From Mesorhizobium sp. YM1C-6-2 (GTDB taxonomy: Bacteria; Pseudomonadota; Alphaproteobacteria; Rhizobiales; Rhizobiaceae): a stretch of 64,000 nt of DNA. The DNA lies in the NCBI RefSeq assembly GCF_003666685.1, contig NZ_RCIZ01000009.1:124001-188000 (forward strand). Reading direction: 5' to 3'. Made by a program: the position numbers and the translations under genes. Of the stretch, positions 49,649-60,369 are shown piece by piece (positions within the stretch are counted from its first letter, which is position 1; every line of letters starts with the position of its first letter). A model generated the notes under the pieces. It did no database searches, was not told where the DNA came from, and worked only from the letters and a program-made list of their open reading frames with translations.

Positions 49649-50497
49649 TCAGGCTGCCGATTTCCTGCGGGATGCGGCGGCCGACTTTCTCGACTTCGAT
49701 TTGGCTGCCGGCTTGATGCCTTCCTTCTCCAGGCTCTTGCGCAGCACGTCGGCCAGGTTGACGACGTTCTCCTTCGGCGGCGCGGCGGGTTTCGGCAGCT
49801 TCCTGCCGGCCTTCTTGGCGTTGATCATCTCGATCAGCGCGTTCTCGTAGCGATCCTCGAAACCGGAGGGGTCGAACTTCGCCACCTTCTTGTCGATGAG
49901 CAGTGAAGCGATCTCGATCATCTCCGGATCGGCGTTCGGCGCCTTGATGTCCTCGAAGATGGATTTTTCGGAAACCACCTCGTTGGCGTTGCGTAGCGTC
50001 GTCATCATGAGGCCGCTGTCGCCGTAGGGCCGGATGACGACCTCGCGGCCCCGCTGATAGAGCACGATGCTGGCGCGGGCGGCGGCCTTCTTCTTCGCCA
50101 GCGCCTCGCGGATCACCGCGAAGGGCTCGCGCGACATGGCGTCGGCCGGCACGACGTAATAGGGCTTGTCCAGATAGCGCTGGTCGATCGAGGCAAGCGG
50201 CACCGTCTCGTCGACGTCCAGCGTATGCTCGGTCGCCTGCTTCAGCTTCTTCACCTCTTCCGGCTCGATGAGCAGATAGTCGCCATCCTCGAGCTGGTAG
50301 CCCTTCATCTGATCCTCGGTTTCGACCACTTCACCGGTGATCTCGTCGACATAGGTCGATTTCACCGGCAGCCGGTCCTTGCGGTTGAGGATGCGGAAAT
50401 GGATCTTTTCGGATTCGCTTGCGGCGTTGACCAGCTTGATGCCGCAGGAGACCGACCCGAACTTCAGAAATCCCTTCCAGATCGCGCGCAACGCCAT
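49649..50497 (-). CDS. ku: Ku protein for DNA non-homologous end joining
   Basis: The 282-residue bacterial Ku binds DNA ends and recruits a LigD ligase. The ATG at 50497, behind GGGAG, starts ALRAIWKGFLKFGSVSCGIKL, the family N-terminus, and the core beta-barrel motifs (HFRILNRKD, YLLIEPEEV) follow. A Lys/Ser/Ala-rich tail from about residue 260 is typical and aids DNA binding. ligD is not in the window. A 73-residue gene lies 61 bases upstream on the same strand. Confidence 0.95.
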   Translation of the reverse strand: MALRAIWKGFLKFGSVSCGIKLVNAASESEKIHFRILNRKDRLPVKSTYVDEITGEVVETEDQMKGYQLEDGDYLLIEPEEVKKLKQATEHTLDVDETVPLASIDQRYLDKPYYVVPADAMSREPFAVIREALAKKKAAARASIVLYQRGREVVIRPYGDSGLMMTTLRNANEVVSEKSIFEDIKAPNADPEMIEIASLLIDKKVAKFDPSGFEDRYENALIEMINAKKAGRKLPKPAAPPKENVVNLADVLRKSLEKEGIKPAAKSKSRKSAAASRRKSAA

Positions 50498-50558
50498 TTT
50501 CAGAACTCCCGGCGGGCTTCGCCCAAGCCTGCGCAGCCGTCTCTCGCCGACATCGCGC

Positions 50559-50780
50559 TCATCCTCCGGCCCGCGCGGCTTCACGCATCAGGCGGATGAC
50601 TTCGTCGGTGCCGACGATAGCCTTGCTGCGCCCGGCGATCAAAGTGGACACGACCGATATCGGGTCGCTCGCAGGGAACGTGTCCTCGAGCCCTTCGCTC
50701 AGTTGCTCCTCAAGCGTCTCGCGGTCCTCCGCGCGGCCCGGGGTGCGTCGTCGACGGCTGCCTTTTCCGTTCAATGCCAT
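50559..50780 (-). CDS. Small protein with FPASDP motif, upstream of ku
   Basis: This 73-residue protein has a basic start (NGKGSRRRRTPGRAEDR), an acidic helix ending in LEDTFPASDPISV, and a helical end. The (L/E)xxFPASDP motif is widespread in small alphaproteobacterial proteins of unknown function. The ATG at 50780 fits the motif-bearing family; the frame is open further upstream but the composition there is different. Cotranscription with ku is likely from the 61-base gap, though a role in end joining is only inferred. Confidence 0.6.
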   Translation of the reverse strand: MALNGKGSRRRRTPGRAEDRETLEEQLSEGLEDTFPASDPISVVSTLIAGRSKAIVGTDEVIRLMREAARAGG

Positions 50781-52938: not shown

Positions 52939-53657
52939 CCGTTCCCCTGTTCTTGTTTCGGATTGGCTTTGGCGGCCACGAGCCGCCGAAGTTCGCGCAC
53001 CGCGCTGTCCGGCGTGGTGATGACCGGCAGGCCGCCGACGGACGCCTCGACCGTGGCTCGGGCACGCGCCATGGAGAATTGACCGAGCAGGATCGCGTCC
53101 GGCGACCCGCAATGCGCGCGGACCGCCTCGGCGACCAGCCCGTCATGGCTAGCGCCGTCGCCCGCCCGCAGCGCGTCGAGCGCGCCACGCGCGACCACGC
53201 AGTCCACCGAAACGGCGCTGCCCTTGTCATCGGCCATGGCACGTAGTTCCTGTTCCAGCACTGCGGCGGAGGGCTCGAAACTGACCACGATGAGGAAGCG
53301 AGCGCCGAGTTCCAGCGCGGCCGAAAACGCGGCCTCGTTCGGCCGCAGGATCGGAATCGGGCTGCCCCGCTTTGTGGCGTCGATCGCATCGCCGAAGGCG
53401 GAGCAGGTGAACAGGATGCCGGCCGTGCGGCCGCCAACGCCTGCGCTGTCGCGCGCATAGTCGGCGAGCACCGCGATGCGGCCATTAATGGCGGCCAGAT
53501 TCCCCGCCGCTTGGGCGCGATCGGCGGACAGCGACGTGTCCAGGAGATCGAAGCACCAGGCCTCGGGCCACAGCCGCGCGAAGGCCTCCTGCGCCGGCCT
53601 GACGGACTCGTCGAGCGCGTGGACAAGCGCGATGCGTGAGTCGGATGGTGGGATCAC
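52935..53657 (-). CDS. Asp/Glu-racemase-family protein with one catalytic cysteine replaced
   Basis: The 240-residue protein follows the two-lobed layout of aspartate/glutamate/hydantoin racemases: [15 protein letters not shown] with Cys85 in the place of the first catalytic cysteine, and [11 protein letters not shown] with Gln193 where the second cysteine normally sits. Two-cysteine members racemise; one-cysteine relatives include arylmalonate decarboxylase and some isomerases. Start and stop overlap both neighbours by 4 bases (GTG start), so it is coupled to the dehydrogenase and the aminotransferase. Racemisation is not supported by the residues seen. Confidence 0.75.
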
Positions 53658-54592
53658 TGGCCTGCCCCCCGATGCGCGCGCAGGATGCGCATCAGGGCCG
53701 CGTCCCGCTCGCTTTCGAGATCGGAGACCGAGCGGCCTGCGGCCTCGTCTTCGATGCCCTGCACCAGGCGTCGGCACAAGGCCTCCGTGAGGTCCGGCGT
53801 GCCGAGGGTCGCCCAGCGCCGGACCTGGCTGGGACCGAGGTGGCGCAGATAGGCGTCGAGGCCGCCCGGGCCGCCGCCCAGATGATAGGCCATGTGTGCG
53901 CCCTGCACCGACCAGCGCAGGCCCGGCCCATGAACGAGCGCGGCATCAACATCCGCCACGCTGGCGATGCCCTGGTCGACGATGTGGACCGCCTCCCGCC
54001 ACAGCGCCGAAGCGAGCCGGTTGGCGATGTGGCCGACGGCCTCCTTTTCGAGGAAGACGGGCCGTCGTTCGAGGCCGGTGAAGAACCGGTGCGCCGCGTC
54101 GCGGGTCCGGGCGTCCGGCGCGAAGATCTCCACCAGCGGCATCAGATGCGGCGGATTGAACGGATGCGCTGTCACGAAACGCTCCTTGAGGGCGAGCGGC
54201 TCCGACAGGACCGACCAGGTCAGCGAGGATGTGCTGGAGGCGATGATCGTCTCGGGACCGATCGCGGCTTCAACCCGGGCGTAGAGCTCATGCTTGAGCG
54301 GAACCGATTCCGGCGCGTTTTCCTGCACCCACGACGCGGAGGCGACGGCCTCCTCGATCGTGGGCGTACAGCGGATGGTTCCTTCAAGGATATCGCCGGA
54401 TTCGAGCGCGCGTATCTGGCGCAAAGCACGGTCGACGAAGGCATGAAACCCGGGAGTCCAGTCATCCGCCGGATCCCAGACGATCACGTCATGGCCATAC
54501 GCGGCGAACAGTGCTGACCAGCTCTGGCCGATTAAGCCGGCGCCGAGGACGGCCACCGTGCGCCGCCCCACGTTTCCACCGTGATCTGTCAT
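53654..54592 (-). CDS. 3-hydroxyacyl-CoA dehydrogenase-family enzyme (carnitine/gulonate dehydrogenase-like)
   Basis: The 312-residue enzyme has an NAD-binding Rossmann domain with GAGLIG at residues 17-22 and the ribose-binding Asp40, the substrate domain motif TAHPFNPPHLMPLVEI with the catalytic histidine, and a helical C-terminus. It is closest in layout to L-carnitine dehydrogenase and lambda-crystallin/gulonate 3-dehydrogenase, which oxidise a 3-hydroxy acid to a 3-keto acid. That product class suits the beta-keto acid cleavage enzyme encoded just across the divergent gap. The ATG at 54592 gives the normal N-terminus. Confidence 0.87.
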   Translation of the reverse strand: MTDHGGNVGRRTVAVLGAGLIGQSWSALFAAYGHDVIVWDPADDWTPGFHAFVDRALRQIRALESGDILEGTIRCTPTIEEAVASASWVQENAPESVPLKHELYARVEAAIGPETIIASSTSSLTWSVLSEPLALKERFVTAHPFNPPHLMPLVEIFAPDARTRDAAHRFFTGLERRPVFLEKEAVGHIANRLASALWREAVHIVDQGIASVADVDAALVHGPGLRWSVQGAHMAYHLGGGPGGLDAYLRHLGPSQVRRWATLGTPDLTEALCRRLVQGIEDEAAGRSVSDLESERDAALMRILRAHRGAGQ

Positions 54593-54621
54593 CGTTCGGA
54601 CGATGTCATCTGCGCGACTCC

Positions 54622-54667
54622 ATGTCACTCCGAGTCAAGCCCGCGAACATCAGAAAATGAGTGACAT
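54622..54667. promoter_or_regulatory. Inverted repeat in the divergent gap of the catabolic cluster
   Basis: ATGTCACTC at 54622-54630 is repeated in perfect inverted form as GAGTGACAT at 54659-54667, with 28 bases between. The right arm covers the start codon of the truncated dehydrogenase gene. The site lies between the two oppositely transcribed arms and could bind a regulator that controls both, or form an RNA hairpin over the start. No regulator gene is in the window. Confidence 0.45.
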
Positions 54668-55505
54668 AACATTACATCAGAGGTCCCCGGCGAGTGCCGC
54701 GGCAGCGCGGGCTTGGTTGGAGCGTGAACTACCGGCCGAGGCGATGCGCCTGATCTCCGTCGTTTCCTCGCTGGAGGAAGCGCTAGAGGGCGCGGACTAC
54801 GTGCAGGAGTCCGCATCCGAGCAGCTTCCCCTGAAGCGTGACCTGTTCGTGCGGCTAGCCGAAGCCGCGCCAGCGTACTGCCTCTTCGCCTCATCAACCT
54901 CCGCACTGCTGCCTGATGCAATCTTCGGCGCGTTGCCGGCGGCCAATCGCTGCCTGATCGCGCATCCGGCCAACCCGCCACACGTGCTTCCCATCGTGGA
55001 GCTGGTGGGCGGCAGCGCGACATCGCAGACGACGCTCGACCGCGCGGCCGACCTGATGGCGTCGTTGGGACAGGACGTGGTGCGCGTGAAGCGCGCCGCG
55101 CCGGGATTTGTGCTGAACCGCCTGCAGGCGGCCCTAGTCGAGGAAGCGCTCGCGCTGGTCGCCAGTGGCATCGCCGATCCGGATGACGTCGACCGCACGG
55201 TCCGCTCCGGGCTGGGGCTGCGTTGGGCCTTTGCCGGCCCGTTCGAGACGATGGACCTCAACGCATCCGGCGGGTTCGCCGCCTATGCCAAGACACTTGG
55301 TCCAGCGCTGGCGGCATCCGCGCCCGGCGGTCCGGAAAGCAGCAACTGGAACGGCGAGGCGCCGTCGATGGTGGTGAACCACCGGCGGAAGTTGCTCGAC
55401 ATCAACGAGATTCCGACCCGGCAGCAATGGCTCGTCGGGCGGTTGAGGGCGCTGCGCGCGCTCAAGGAAGAAAAAAACGGCATACCTGGGCAGGAGACGT
55501 CATGA
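54657..55505 (+). pseudogene. 3-hydroxyacyl-CoA dehydrogenase paralogue lacking its NAD-binding N-terminus
   Basis: The 282-residue frame starts at an ATG at 54657 and aligns with the intact dehydrogenase at 53654-54592 from its second beta strand onward (ITLHQRSP against VIVWDP). It keeps FASSTSALLPDAI, IAHPANPPHVLPIVEL with the catalytic histidine, and GLGLRWAFAGPFE. About 30 residues, including the whole GxGxxG strand-turn-helix, are missing, and the 64-base gap upstream cannot hold them. No frame in that gap contains the motif, so this is a deletion and not a frameshift. It overlaps the next gene by 4 bases. Dead remnant is likeliest; a binding protein without NAD is possible. Confidence 0.7.
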
Positions 55506-56449
55506 GCGAGACAGTCAAGAAGAACCGCAAAGTCATCATCACCTGCGCGGTGACGGGCTCGATCCACACCCCAACCATGTCGGAACATCTGCCGATCACA
55601 CCGGCGGAAATCGCGGATGGCGCGATTGGCGCCGCAGAAGCCGGCGCGGCGATCCTGCACCTTCATGCCCGCGACCCGAATGACGGCAGCCCGACTCCCT
55701 CGCCGGAGGTTTTCCAGGAGTTCCTGCCGCGCATCGCGTCGGAGACCGATGCCGTGCTGAACATCACGACGGGCGGCGGCCACAACATGACCGTTCAGGA
55801 TCGGCTCGCGGCGCCGCTGCGCTTCAAGCCGGAAATGTGCTCACTCAACATGGGCTCAATGAACTTCGGCCTGTTCCCGATGCTCTCCCGCTATCCCAAC
55901 TGGCGGCACGACTGGGAACCGAAGTACTTGGAGAATTCCCGCGATTTCATCTTCCGGAACACGTTCAAGGATATCGAATACATCCTCAAGCATCTCGGCG
56001 AGGACTGCGGAACGCGGTTCGAGTTCGAGTGCTACGATATCGGCCATCTATATACTCTCGCGCACTTTCTCGACCGGGGTCTGGTGAAGGCGCCGCTGTT
56101 CGTGCAGTCGATCTTCGGCATCCTGGGTGGCATCGGCGCCACACCCGCGGACGTGATGCACATGCGCGCCACGGCGGACCGGCTGTTCGGCTCGCACTAC
56201 GAGTGGTCGATCCTCGCCGCCGGCCGGCACCAGATGAGCCTTTGCACCATGGGCGCGATCCTGGGTGGAAACGTGCGTGTCGGGCTGGAGGACAGCCTGT
56301 ACCTCGGCAAGGGCCAGCTCGCTCGCTCCAACGCCGAACAAGTCGCGAAGATCAAGCGGATCCTGGGCGAGCTGTCGCTCGAAGTCGCTACGCCGGCGGA
56401 AGCGCGGGCGATGCTCGACCTCAAGGGTTCATCTGAGACCGCCATCTGA
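55502..56449 (+). CDS. Beta-keto acid cleavage enzyme (BKACE, DUF849)
   Basis: BKACE enzymes react a beta-keto acid with acetyl-CoA to give acetoacetate and a new acyl-CoA. The 315-residue TIM-barrel protein has the metal-binding His53 and His55 in ILHLHARDP, NITTGGG, and the C-terminal RVGLEDSLYLGKGQLARSNAEQV, all family motifs. The N-terminus KVIITCAVTGS is typical. The family uses different keto acids, among them 3-keto-5-aminohexanoate and dehydrocarnitine; the substrate here is not known. Its start overlaps the truncated dehydrogenase frame. Confidence 0.92.
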   Translation: MSETVKKNRKVIITCAVTGSIHTPTMSEHLPITPAEIADGAIGAAEAGAAILHLHARDPNDGSPTPSPEVFQEFLPRIASETDAVLNITTGGGHNMTVQDRLAAPLRFKPEMCSLNMGSMNFGLFPMLSRYPNWRHDWEPKYLENSRDFIFRNTFKDIEYILKHLGEDCGTRFEFECYDIGHLYTLAHFLDRGLVKAPLFVQSIFGILGGIGATPADVMHMRATADRLFGSHYEWSILAAGRHQMSLCTMGAILGGNVRVGLEDSLYLGKGQLARSNAEQVAKIKRILGELSLEVATPAEARAMLDLKGSSETAI

Positions 56450-56515: not shown

Positions 56516-58591
56516 ATGCGTTTTGCCACTGACACCGGAGGAACGTTCACCGACCTCGTCGTCGAAGGAGACGACGGCCATGTGCGCATGTTCAAGGCCT
56601 CGACCACCCCGGGCGATCCGATCCGCGGCGTCCTTGACGTGCTGCAGGTCGCAGCCGATGCGTACGGTCTGGACCGCGCAGAGATGCTGCGCAAGGGCGA
56701 CCTCTTCATTCACGGCACCACCCGCGCGATCAACGCGATCGTCACCAACACAGTCGCCAAGACCGCGCTGCTAACGACCTGGGGTAACTCCGAAGTTCTG
56801 GTGCTGCGCGAGGGGGGGCGCATCGAGCCGTTCAACTTCACCGTTCCCTATCCGAAGCCGTACATTCCGCGCGCCCTGACCTTCGAGATTCCGGAACGGG
56901 TGCTGTTCGACGGCTCGGTGGATGTCGCGCTCGACGAGGAGGCGGTGCTGGAGATCATCGAGCGGCTGAAGGCCGAGAAGGTTGAGGCGGTCGCCGTCAG
57001 CCTTCTGTGGTCGGTCGTCAATCCGGCGCATGAGGAGCGCGTCGGCGAATTGCTCGCCAAGCATCTGCCCGGCGTTCCGGTCACGCTGTCGCATGAGGTG
57101 AACCCGATCCTGCGCGAATACCGCCGGACCTCGGCAGCCGCGATCGACGCTTCGCTCAAGCCGTTGATGACCGCCTACATGGAGACGCTTGAATCGCGTC
57201 TGCGGGATGCGGGTTTCGAGGGGCGCGTGCTCGTGCTGACCTCTCAGGGCGGCGTGCTCGATGCCGCCGACGTTGCCAAGCAGCCGATCCACTCCATCAA
57301 TTCGGGACCATCCATGGCGCCAGTCGCAGGCCGCTACTTCGCGCTCAGCGACGCGTCGACCTCCGACGCGATCGTGGCGGATACCGGCGGCACGACCTAC
57401 GACGTCAGCCTCATTCGCGGCGGGACGATTCCGTGGGCGAGGGAGACCTGGATCGGACAACCGTTCCGCGGCCACATGACCGGCTTCCCGTCGATCGACG
57501 TGAAGAGCGTCGGCGCCGGCGGCGGCTCCATCGCTTCGGTGGACGAAGGCGGCCTGCTGACGGTCGGCCCGCGAAGCGCGGGGTCGGTACCCGGACCGGT
57601 GTGCTACGGCAATGGGGGAACCGAACCCACCGTGACGGATGCGGCGCTGGTTCTGGGCTATCTGAACCCTGGAAACTTCCTGGGCGGCGCGATTACGCTC
57701 GATCTCGACGCGGCCAAGCGCGCGGTCGAGGAGAAGGTCGCGAAGCCGCTCGGCCTGTCAATCGAGGAAGCGGCGGCGTCGATCCTCGACGTGGTGACCG
57801 AGAACATGGTCCATGCGATCGACGATATCACGGTCGCGCAGGGCTTTGACCCGGCGCAGGCGGTGCTGGTGGGCGGCGGCGGCGCGGCAGGCTTCAACAG
57901 CGTGCTGATCGCGCGGCGGCTCGGCTGCCGCAAGCTGATCATGCCGCAGGTGGGCGCGGCGCTTTCGGCCGGCGGCGGCCTGATCTCGGAGCTGACCAAC
58001 AACTTCCGCGTCATCGCGGCGACGCGGACCGACCACTTCGATTTCGACCTTGCCCGCAACGCCATCGCGGAGCTGAACCGGAAGGCCAGGACCTTCCTCA
58101 ACAACACCGGCGAACAGGCGATCGAGACCAAGGTCTCGTTCAGCATCGAGGGACACTATCCGTCGCAGGTCTGGGACATCGAAGTGCCGCTGGATGCGGA
58201 CCGGCTGAGCACCGCCGAAGATGTGGTGGCGCTGGAGGAAGCCTTCCACCAGGTCCACGACAAGCTGTTCGCGGTGCGCGACGAGGGTTCACCCGTCGAG
58301 ATCGTCGGGTGGCGCGTCGACATCGCGATCAAGATCCGCTCCGGCGAGATCGGCCAGATGCACAACATCGCCTCGGACGACACCGCCACGACCCGGCGCT
58401 GCTACTTCCGTGAGACCGAAACGGCGGACGTGCCACTGGTGAGCTTCGCCGCCATGTCGGAACACCTCAAGGTCGCCGGCCCGGCGATTGTGGAATCCCC
58501 CTTCACGACCATCGTCGTGTTCCCTGGCTCCGTCGCCTCGCGCGCCGCGTCCGGTTCGGTCGTCATCGATATCCCTGGAGAAAACGCATGA
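56516..58591 (+). CDS. hyuA: HyuA-family hydantoinase/oxoprolinase/acetone-carboxylase subunit
   Basis: The 691-residue protein has the actin-like ATP-binding fold of HyuA: FATDTGGTFTDLVVE at the N-terminus, HGTTRAINAI, ADTGGTTYDVSLI in the middle and VGGGGAAGFNSVLIARRLG. HyuA with HyuB opens lactam or imide rings (N-methylhydantoin, 5-oxoproline) using ATP, or activates ketones for carboxylation. Length is normal. A GGGAGAAGAG precedes the ATG. hyuB follows with a 4-base overlap. A run of seven G near 56812 is in frame. Confidence 0.92.
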   Translation: MRFATDTGGTFTDLVVEGDDGHVRMFKASTTPGDPIRGVLDVLQVAADAYGLDRAEMLRKGDLFIHGTTRAINAIVTNTVAKTALLTTWGNSEVLVLREGGRIEPFNFTVPYPKPYIPRALTFEIPERVLFDGSVDVALDEEAVLEIIERLKAEKVEAVAVSLLWSVVNPAHEERVGELLAKHLPGVPVTLSHEVNPILREYRRTSAAAIDASLKPLMTAYMETLESRLRDAGFEGRVLVLTSQGGVLDAADVAKQPIHSINSGPSMAPVAGRYFALSDASTSDAIVADTGGTTYDVSLIRGGTIPWARETWIGQPFRGHMTGFPSIDVKSVGAGGGSIASVDEGGLLTVGPRSAGSVPGPVCYGNGGTEPTVTDAALVLGYLNPGNFLGGAITLDLDAAKRAVEEKVAKPLGLSIEEAAASILDVVTENMVHAIDDITVAQGFDPAQAVLVGGGGAAGFNSVLIARRLGCRKLIMPQVGAALSAGGGLISELTNNFRVIAATRTDHFDFDLARNAIAELNRKARTFLNNTGEQAIETKVSFSIEGHYPSQVWDIEVPLDADRLSTAEDVVALEEAFHQVHDKLFAVRDEGSPVEIVGWRVDIAIKIRSGEIGQMHNIASDDTATTRRCYFRETETADVPLVSFAAMSEHLKVAGPAIVESPFTTIVVFPGSVASRAASGSVVIDIPGENA

Positions 58592-60369
58592 GCACCTCGG
58601 CCAATCGCGCGCCTTCGAGCGGCTCCATCGACGGCGTCAAGCTGGCGATCCTCAACAACCGGTGGGAGGCGGTCGCCCGCAAGATGGCGAACACCCTGCT
58701 GCGGACCGGCCGCTCCGGCGTGCTGGCGACCGCCCGCGACTTCTCCTGCTGCATTGTGACCGCAGACAACCGGCTGCTTGCGACGGCGGAGAGCATTCCG
58801 ATCCACGTTCTGGTTGGGCCGGACATGATGGCGCAATCCATGTGCGACCTTCACCCCAATCTGCGCCCGGGTGACGCCTTCCTGCACAACTCGCCCTATC
58901 ATGGCTGTTCGCACGCGGCGGACCTGTCCGTGCTCGTGCCCGTATTCGACCAGGCGGGTCGGCACCGCTACACTGCGATCGTGAAGGCCCACCAGGCCGA
59001 CATCGGCAACTCGATCCCGACGACCTATTTCGGGCACGCCCGCGACGTCTACAACGAGGGCGCGCTGATCTTCCCGGCCGTGCAGGTCCAGCGTGACTAC
59101 AAGGACATCGATGACATCATCCGGATGTGCAAGATGCGCATCCGCGTGCCGCAGCAATGGTGGGGCGACTATCTCGGCATGATGGGCGCCGGCCGTATCG
59201 CCGAGCGCGAAATCCACGCCATGGGCGAGGAGTTCTGCTGGGACGAGCTGGCCGGTTTCGGTGAGCAGTGGTTCTCCTACAGCGCCGAGCGCATGCGCAC
59301 CGCCATCGCTCAGCTTCCGAAGAAGACGGCGACCGCCTCCAGCACGCATGACGCGCTGCCCGGCACGCCGGAGGAAGGAGTGAAGATCAACGCCACCGTC
59401 GCGGTCGATTCCGAGAACGGCTACATCGATATCGATCTCACCGACAACATCGACGCACTCGAGCTCGGCATCAACGTGTCCGAGGCCTGCACGCGCACCG
59501 CGGCGCTGATCGGGGTGTTCAACTCGATCGACCATCGCGTCCCGCGCAATGCCGGCTCGTTCAGCCGCGTCCGCGTGAAGCTTCGCGAAGGCGCGGTGGT
59601 CGGCATCCCGCAACATCCAACCAGTTGCTCGGTGGCGACGACCAACGTCGCGGACCGCATCAGCAACTCCGTGCAGACCGCGATCGCCTCGATGGACAGC
59701 CGCTTCGGCCAGGCTGAGACGGGCGCGCTCAGCCCTGCCACCATGGCGGTGATCTCCGGCAAGGATCCGCGCAAGGGCCGACCCTTCGTCAACCAGATCT
59801 TCCTGGGCGCGACCGGCGGTGCCGGCACGCCGACGCAGGATTCCTGGATGACCATCGCCCACGCTGGCAATGCGGGCATGCTCTACATCGACAGCATCGA
59901 AATCCTCGAGCTCGCCTATCCGATCCGCTGCTACCAGCGCCGTCTCGTGACCGACTCCGAGGGAGCCGGCGAGTTCACCGGCGCGCCGAGCCTGATGGGT
60001 GAATACGGGCCGCACGGCTGCAGCATGACGGTAAACGCCGTCAGCGATGGCACCGTGAACGCCGCCAAGGGCGCGGCCGGCGGCGGCGCGGCGCAAGGCG
60101 CCCGCCAGTTCCGCAAGCGCGCGGACGGCTCCCTGGAAGAACTGCCAGTTGTCGTGTCGGTGACCATCGCTCCGGATGAGCGGGTCGTCTCCTACTCGTG
60201 CGGCGGCGGCGGGTTCGGCGATCCTAAGAGCCGGGCCATGGAGAAGGTCGTCGCTGACCTTCGCGAAGGGCTCATCAGCGAGCAGCGCGCTCGCGATGTC
60301 TACGGGGTCACCGTGAAAGGTGACTTCGCCGTTGACCTGGCCGCGACGGAGGAACTCCGCTCGGCCTGA
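58588..60369 (+). CDS. hyuB: HyuB-family hydantoinase/oxoprolinase/acetone-carboxylase subunit
   Basis: The 593-residue protein shows the HyuB pattern: NRWEAVARKMANTLLRTGRS, the metal-region HNSPYHGCSHAADLSVLVPVF, and the glycine-rich C-terminal SYSCGGGGFGDPKSR. It pairs with the HyuA product to form the ATP-dependent hydrolase or carboxylase. The start overlaps hyuA by 4 bases, and the ABC transporter genes follow on the same strand. Which of the family reactions it performs cannot be told from sequence. Confidence 0.92.
   Translation: MSTSANRAPSSGSIDGVKLAILNNRWEAVARKMANTLLRTGRSGVLATARDFSCCIVTADNRLLATAESIPIHVLVGPDMMAQSMCDLHPNLRPGDAFLHNSPYHGCSHAADLSVLVPVFDQAGRHRYTAIVKAHQADIGNSIPTTYFGHARDVYNEGALIFPAVQVQRDYKDIDDIIRMCKMRIRVPQQWWGDYLGMMGAGRIAEREIHAMGEEFCWDELAGFGEQWFSYSAERMRTAIAQLPKKTATASSTHDALPGTPEEGVKINATVAVDSENGYIDIDLTDNIDALELGINVSEACTRTAALIGVFNSIDHRVPRNAGSFSRVRVKLREGAVVGIPQHPTSCSVATTNVADRISNSVQTAIASMDSRFGQAETGALSPATMAVISGKDPRKGRPFVNQIFLGATGGAGTPTQDSWMTIAHAGNAGMLYIDSIEILELAYPIRCYQRRLVTDSEGAGEFTGAPSLMGEYGPHGCSMTVNAVSDGTVNAAKGAAGGGAAQGARQFRKRADGSLEELPVVVSVTIAPDERVVSYSCGGGGFGDPKSRAMEKVVADLREGLISEQRARDVYGVTVKGDFAVDLAATEELRSA

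Follow-up and report, generated by a model that had tools for sequence, protein, structure and literature searches.

Organization of the locus

Within the window, by which we mean the whole 64-kb stretch of DNA that was analysed, a 5'-truncated dehydrogenase frame heads a rightward set of genes comprising a BKACE gene, two hydantoinase-like subunits, and branched-chain-type transporter genes (Table 1). As the initial annotation had stated, the frame overlaps the BKACE gene by 4 bases, its TGA sharing an ATGA with the BKACE ATG at 55502. BKACE scores above the cut-off of NF053538, the model for 3,5-dioxohexanoate:acetyl-CoA acetone transferase, while the hydantoinase-like subunits, at 571 and 254 bits against caprolactamase CapA and CapB, fall well short of the curated cut-offs of 1000. 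Past the window edge, the transporter genes are followed by two short-chain dehydrogenases and then, at 2660-5545 of L118, by genes for a GntR-type regulator and an acetoacetate-CoA ligase (985 bits against a cut-off of 521). A beta-hydroxyacid dehydrogenase yields a beta-keto acid, which BKACE cleaves with acetyl-CoA to give acetoacetate, and the ligase activates acetoacetate; the presence of the ligase nearby fits with acetoacetate release by BKACE.

The divergent arm consists of an intact dehydrogenase, a racemase-like gene, and a class III aminotransferase. The intact dehydrogenase covers positions 1-177 of the Pfam 3HCDH_N profile and probably begins at GTG 54571, over ATG 54592 or GTG 54628; this is the start position in Mesorhizobium denitrificans and has a ribosome-binding site (-6.2). 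Given this start, the gap between the two dehydrogenases, originally put at 64 bases, is more likely 85. The top-scoring model for the intact dehydrogenase is L-carnitine dehydrogenase (NF005471; 232.8 bits, short of the curated cut-off of 414), a model that is less close to the truncated gene, which is nearer PRK06129. Carnitine pathways likewise pair such a dehydrogenase with BKACE.

Table 1. Coordinates of genes and sequence features at the dehydrogenase-BKACE locus (window positions)
Feature	Position	Strand	Remarks
Intact divergent dehydrogenase, nearest carnitine dehydrogenase models	53654..54571	-	likely start GTG 54571
Beta-hydroxyacid dehydrogenase frame, 5'-truncated	54657..55505	+	282 aa
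New start of the frame, codons 1-12, former non-coding DNA	54657..54692	+	codon usage and codon-model test
Imperfect palindrome TGACATAACATTACATCA, operator-like	54662..54679	.	suggestive only
BKACE gene, own ribosome-binding site	55502..56449	+	538 bits against NF053538 cut-off of 430
Hydantoinase/oxoprolinase-like subunit A (hydA), nearest caprolactamase alpha (below cut-off)	56516..58591	+	
Hydantoinase/oxoprolinase-like subunit B (hydB), nearest caprolactamase beta (below cut-off)	58588..60369	+	

The truncated frame lacks its nucleotide-binding start

In the truncated frame, Pfam aligned 3HCDH_N over profile positions 49-178 of 180 only, followed by 3HCDH. Strand 1, the GxGxxG motif and helix 1 of a lambda-crystallin-type beta-hydroxyacid dehydrogenase are absent, leaving the frame without the nucleotide-binding start that characterizes NAD-dependent 3-hydroxyacid dehydrogenases. 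The same reading frame is open further 5' to ATG 54603, which would give 300 aa, with the motif still absent. The rest of the Rossmann domain and the C-terminal domain are present with their conserved His, Glu, Ser, and Asn positions; H103, E115, S80, S82, and N154, in columns that we take to have catalytic roles, are invariant or nearly invariant in the alignment and are all kept, as is the conserved R155. The nearest NCBIfam model is PRK06129 (NF004783), at 268.8 bits against a curated cut-off of 347 that two intact orthologues (301.6 and 314.9 bits) miss as well. The closest solved structures by sequence are of the lambda-crystallin / L-gulonate 3-dehydrogenase kind (PDB 3ado and 3f3s; 5.6e-47), and in a fold comparison the truncated protein also matched this kind best (E 4.9e-22, 35% identity, TM 0.74, though with an rmsd of 12.8). 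The SxS, HPANPP, and NR-type motifs of these proteins are retained, but the nucleotide-binding start is gone: alignment to 3ado begins at its residue 65, compared to residue 7 for the M. denitrificans orthologue.

The closest orthologues found are those of M. denitrificans LA-28 (172/261 residues, 65.9%), Gemmobacter caeni (168/275, 61.1%), and Xinfangfangia pollutisoli (159/269, 59.1%). All three are 308 aa long and contain GxGxxG, and at each of these loci BKACE and the two hydantoinase-like subunits come next; the LA-28 locus additionally has the divergent dehydrogenase and racemase. The proposed loss of the NAD-binding start, an essential part relative to these orthologues, is thus supported, but its size had been underestimated: about 34-41 residues rather than 30 are missing, because dehydrogenase sequence begins only after the ATG and some 8-11 further codons (see below).

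A scan of genome contigs yielded 66 related loci, 65 of which have an aligned GxGxxG, the exception (L087) ending at its contig edge. A relative with the same short form, which would have counted against the initial annotation, appeared at none of the 66 (searched by exact short peptide patterns, which may miss relatives). Close orthologues were sought among 397 genomes of the order (E <= 1e-60) and 385 of the class (1e-62), returning the window's own gene only, and in genome G574 with 60 relatives (1e-58), returning G574 itself only; G574 adds nothing, since its gene encodes the same protein as that of LA-28 (L026). For the three remaining genomes of the genus, the top matches among those listed share 33-35% identity, and every one of the 765 plasmid records matched was below 60% identity. 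Searching 394 genomes of the family with BKACE gave 125 with a match at 1e-130, the best besides the window's own being G574 at 88% and the next at 71%. A literature search found nothing on the present locus.

The truncated gene had also been described as a dying duplicate. While the evidence presented here favors a dying gene, it is not a recent copy of the gene across the gap. The two are 38% identical (70/186 columns; 38.5% in a second comparison), their best NCBIfam models differ, and LA-28 carries a separate orthologue of each (65.9% for the truncated and 63.2% for the divergent gene, compared to 35-38% for the crossed pairs). We therefore rejected recent duplication; judging from these sequences, the split between the genes predates that of the species, and both are old.

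The missing start was not found in the assembly

The missing start was sought with the N-termini of the three orthologues. Within the window, only the start of the divergent gene was found (E 2e-8 or better), with nothing else better than E 0.09, in agreement with the earlier statement that no other frame in the gap contains the motif. Across the 5.5-Mb genome, the divergent gene again ranked first (2e-6) among 21 matches at E <= 1, the next reaching 0.0027, and no closer intact copy of the dehydrogenase was found in the genome, the next best match being 38% identical. Relocation of the missing start to another frame or elsewhere in the genome was rejected, as neither search found it.

Here, 134 bases separate the likely divergent start from the first codon that is securely shared, compared to 462 in LA-28, and the size difference measured from palindromic elements in Gemmobacter (see below) is about 150 or 250 bases. 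These spacing differences imply that roughly 150-330 bases are missing, if a single deletion is responsible. The genome is in 53 contigs, and it might be supposed that the deletion is an assembly error and that the true chromosome carries an intact gene. However, the junction lies inside a long, 214,527-base contig (C53), its sequence occurs once in the assembly, no direct repeat of at least 9 bases was found around it, and the missing piece was found on no contig; we therefore regard misassembly as unlikely.

Two inverted-repeat pairs, perfect over 9 and 10 bases (54622/54659 and 54636/54706), interleave over the junction at 54622-54715. An arrangement of this kind arose in 6/2000 shuffles of 54593-54760, but two such pairs are likewise held by 9/760 ordinary 168-base stretches of the window, and for this reason a repair scar is not claimed. 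A bacterial Ku gene, of the non-homologous end joining type, lies 4 kb off at 49652-50584 (255.7 bits, cut-off 150).

Selection and expression signals

An in-house implementation of a two-ratio codon model, run on 261 codons of four sequences with long synonymous branches, gave an omega of 0.050 for the window branch against 0.121 for the others; the two values do not differ significantly (2dlnL 2.7). When the window branch is set to 1.0, 0.5, 0.3, 0.2, or 0.15, the cost in 2dlnL is 16.7, 13.9, 10.6, 7.5, or 5.2, respectively, so that neutrality is rejected, as are values of 0.15 and above, while an omega of 0.1 costs 2.3. On the same branch, omega is 0.016 for BKACE, 0.048 for hydA, and 0.026 for hydB. 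The low value indicates that the gene was constrained through most of the branch, but it fits a recent break and a retained, constrained remnant alike and does not separate them.

Pairing with the 16S tail before ATG 54657 is +0.1 kcal/mol, compared to -6.2 kcal/mol for each of the three orthologues, -7.1 for BKACE, -7.1 for hydA, and -6.4 for hydB, and to a median of -3.0 over 500 random places. The ribosome-binding site of the orthologues is thus absent from the truncated gene, and none is present at its first two starts. Of 15 in-frame starts scored between 54603 and 55086, stronger pairing precedes GTG 55086 (-7.2, 139 aa), GTG 54801 (-6.3, 234 aa), GTG 55005 (-5.6), and ATG 54744 (-5.3), in the latter two cases just 2 bases from the start. 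The initial annotation had also raised the possibility that the deletion fused the downstream genes to the divergent promoter. This received no support, as consensus scans detected no sigma-70-like site on the + strand over the junction. One + strand candidate each was detected in M. denitrificans and Gemmobacter, although such sites exceed chance only slightly (3 seen for a mean of 1.0, and 1 for 0.5, counting both strands). In these scans, ribosome-binding site and promoter-like site are therefore both lacking, a loss of expression signals of the sort that marks pseudogenes.

These data bear on whether the cell still produces the short protein and employs it as a pseudoenzyme without NAD, which might for instance bind the beta-keto acid or partner the divergent dehydrogenase or BKACE. 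Such a role would be consistent with the low omega, with the conserved positions still present (H103, E115, S80, R155, and others), and with AlphaFold2 models of the short protein that are confident (mean pLDDT 95.4 and 92.7). However, the first two starts have no ribosome-binding site, the short form is shared by none of the related loci, and a recent break would equally give a low omega, and we accordingly consider a working pseudoenzyme rather improbable.

The new start of the frame derives from non-coding DNA

Codons 2-12, AGT, ATA, ACA, TTA, and AGG among them, average -7.36 in log2 codon frequency, and not one of 3982 eleven-codon stretches from 11 neighbouring genes is as poor. When a codon model is fitted to the orthologues, continuation of the gene through residues 2-12 scores 19.3 log units below intergenic DNA; none of 212 other stretches of the truncated gene is as low (lowest, -2.6), and residue by residue the signal becomes mixed at residue 10 and is positive for the most part from residue 17 on. 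GC content is 30% at 54650-54679 compared to 68% in codons 13-281. Together, codon usage, the codon model, and GC content place the join near 54684-54705, corresponding to orthologue codon 35-42. Codons 2-12 are of non-coding origin and hold no dehydrogenase remains, a result that is new here. Probably, a single deletion of roughly 150-330 bases fused upstream DNA in frame to codon 35-42.

It could be argued instead that a shorter deletion broke the gene and that residues 3-12 represent what is left of Rossmann strand 2 after decay, rather than control DNA. MAFFT places DITLHQRS on EVRLCDMS gaplessly and adjoining the homologous part, residue shuffling gave p = 0.03, and AlphaFold2 predicted a strand at residues 4-7 whether alignment rows covered this part (pLDDT 92 for residues 1-10) or not (78). 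Set against this are the codon-model deficit relative to the intergenic null and a codon usage below that of every neighbouring stretch. We judged the codon evidence stronger than the alignment, shuffle, and AlphaFold2 support, and a strand-2 remnant to be very unlikely.

The palindrome within the new start is suggestive of an operator. Even with up to 2 mismatches allowed, it matches nowhere else in the genome, and similar elements lie 5' of the Gemmobacter and Xinfangfangia genes, M. denitrificans having none. In Gemmobacter (L027, 5754) and Xinfangfangia (L028, 5747), the element TGATATATCGTTA(T/G)ATC stands ~170 bases before the intact gene, with the surrounding DNA less alike. Among 28 upstream regions (the window and 27 of 65 starts), the pattern, which was derived from the window and Gemmobacter sequences themselves, is exact in the window, has 1 mismatch upstream of two orthologues, and at least 4 in the other 25. 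The observed junction alignment score was reached by 16/300 shuffles for Gemmobacter, 14/300 for Xinfangfangia, and 272/300 for M. denitrificans, and since this support is weak we hold the operator reading as suggestive only. The 100 bases at 54593-54692 hold five TGAYRT half-sites, the densest in the window, although these were sought after the fact; the cluster may represent regulator half-sites. A MAFFT alignment of the upstream DNA was uninformative.

Interpretation

Based on the data presented above, it is likely that the frame is a recent 5'-deleted pseudogene of the lambda-crystallin / L-gulonate-3-dehydrogenase type, heading an otherwise intact conserved operon. An ancestral full-length dehydrogenase would have headed the conserved set of dehydrogenase, BKACE, and two hydantoinase-like subunits, and late on the present branch a deletion of the size given above would have linked codon 35-42 in frame to the DNA lying upstream. 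Any product would be predicted to be unable to bind NAD in the usual way, and with this lost, the step from beta-hydroxy acid to BKACE substrate would either be missing from the arm or fall to the divergent dehydrogenase. Provided that they are transcribed, BKACE and the later genes could be translated from their own ribosome-binding sites.

Several observations run against a pseudogene: the frame is open and in register, omega is low, the AlphaFold2 models are confident, and a later start, GTG 54801, has fair pairing. A more elaborate proposal, in which control DNA made coding by the deletion supplies a new N-terminus replacing Rossmann strand 2 in a still-selected NAD-less pseudoenzyme, with the old operator inside the frame, strikes us as highly improbable.

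Bacterial pseudogenes truncated at the 5' end are a known general kind, in which the promoter side, the ribosome-binding site, and the first codons are lost and the operon is otherwise intact. In contrast with the usual case, the join here is in frame, and since upstream DNA supplies an ATG, the remnant resembles a complete gene. As a 5'-deleted pseudogene, the frame would represent gene decay of an ordinary kind. It also serves as a warning for annotation, given that it would be taken for a complete 282-aa dehydrogenase starting at an ATG and that first residues derived from non-coding DNA align and model plausibly. For the organism, the finding predicts a metabolic gap, in that the BKACE operon would be without its partner dehydrogenase and perhaps also without a promoter.
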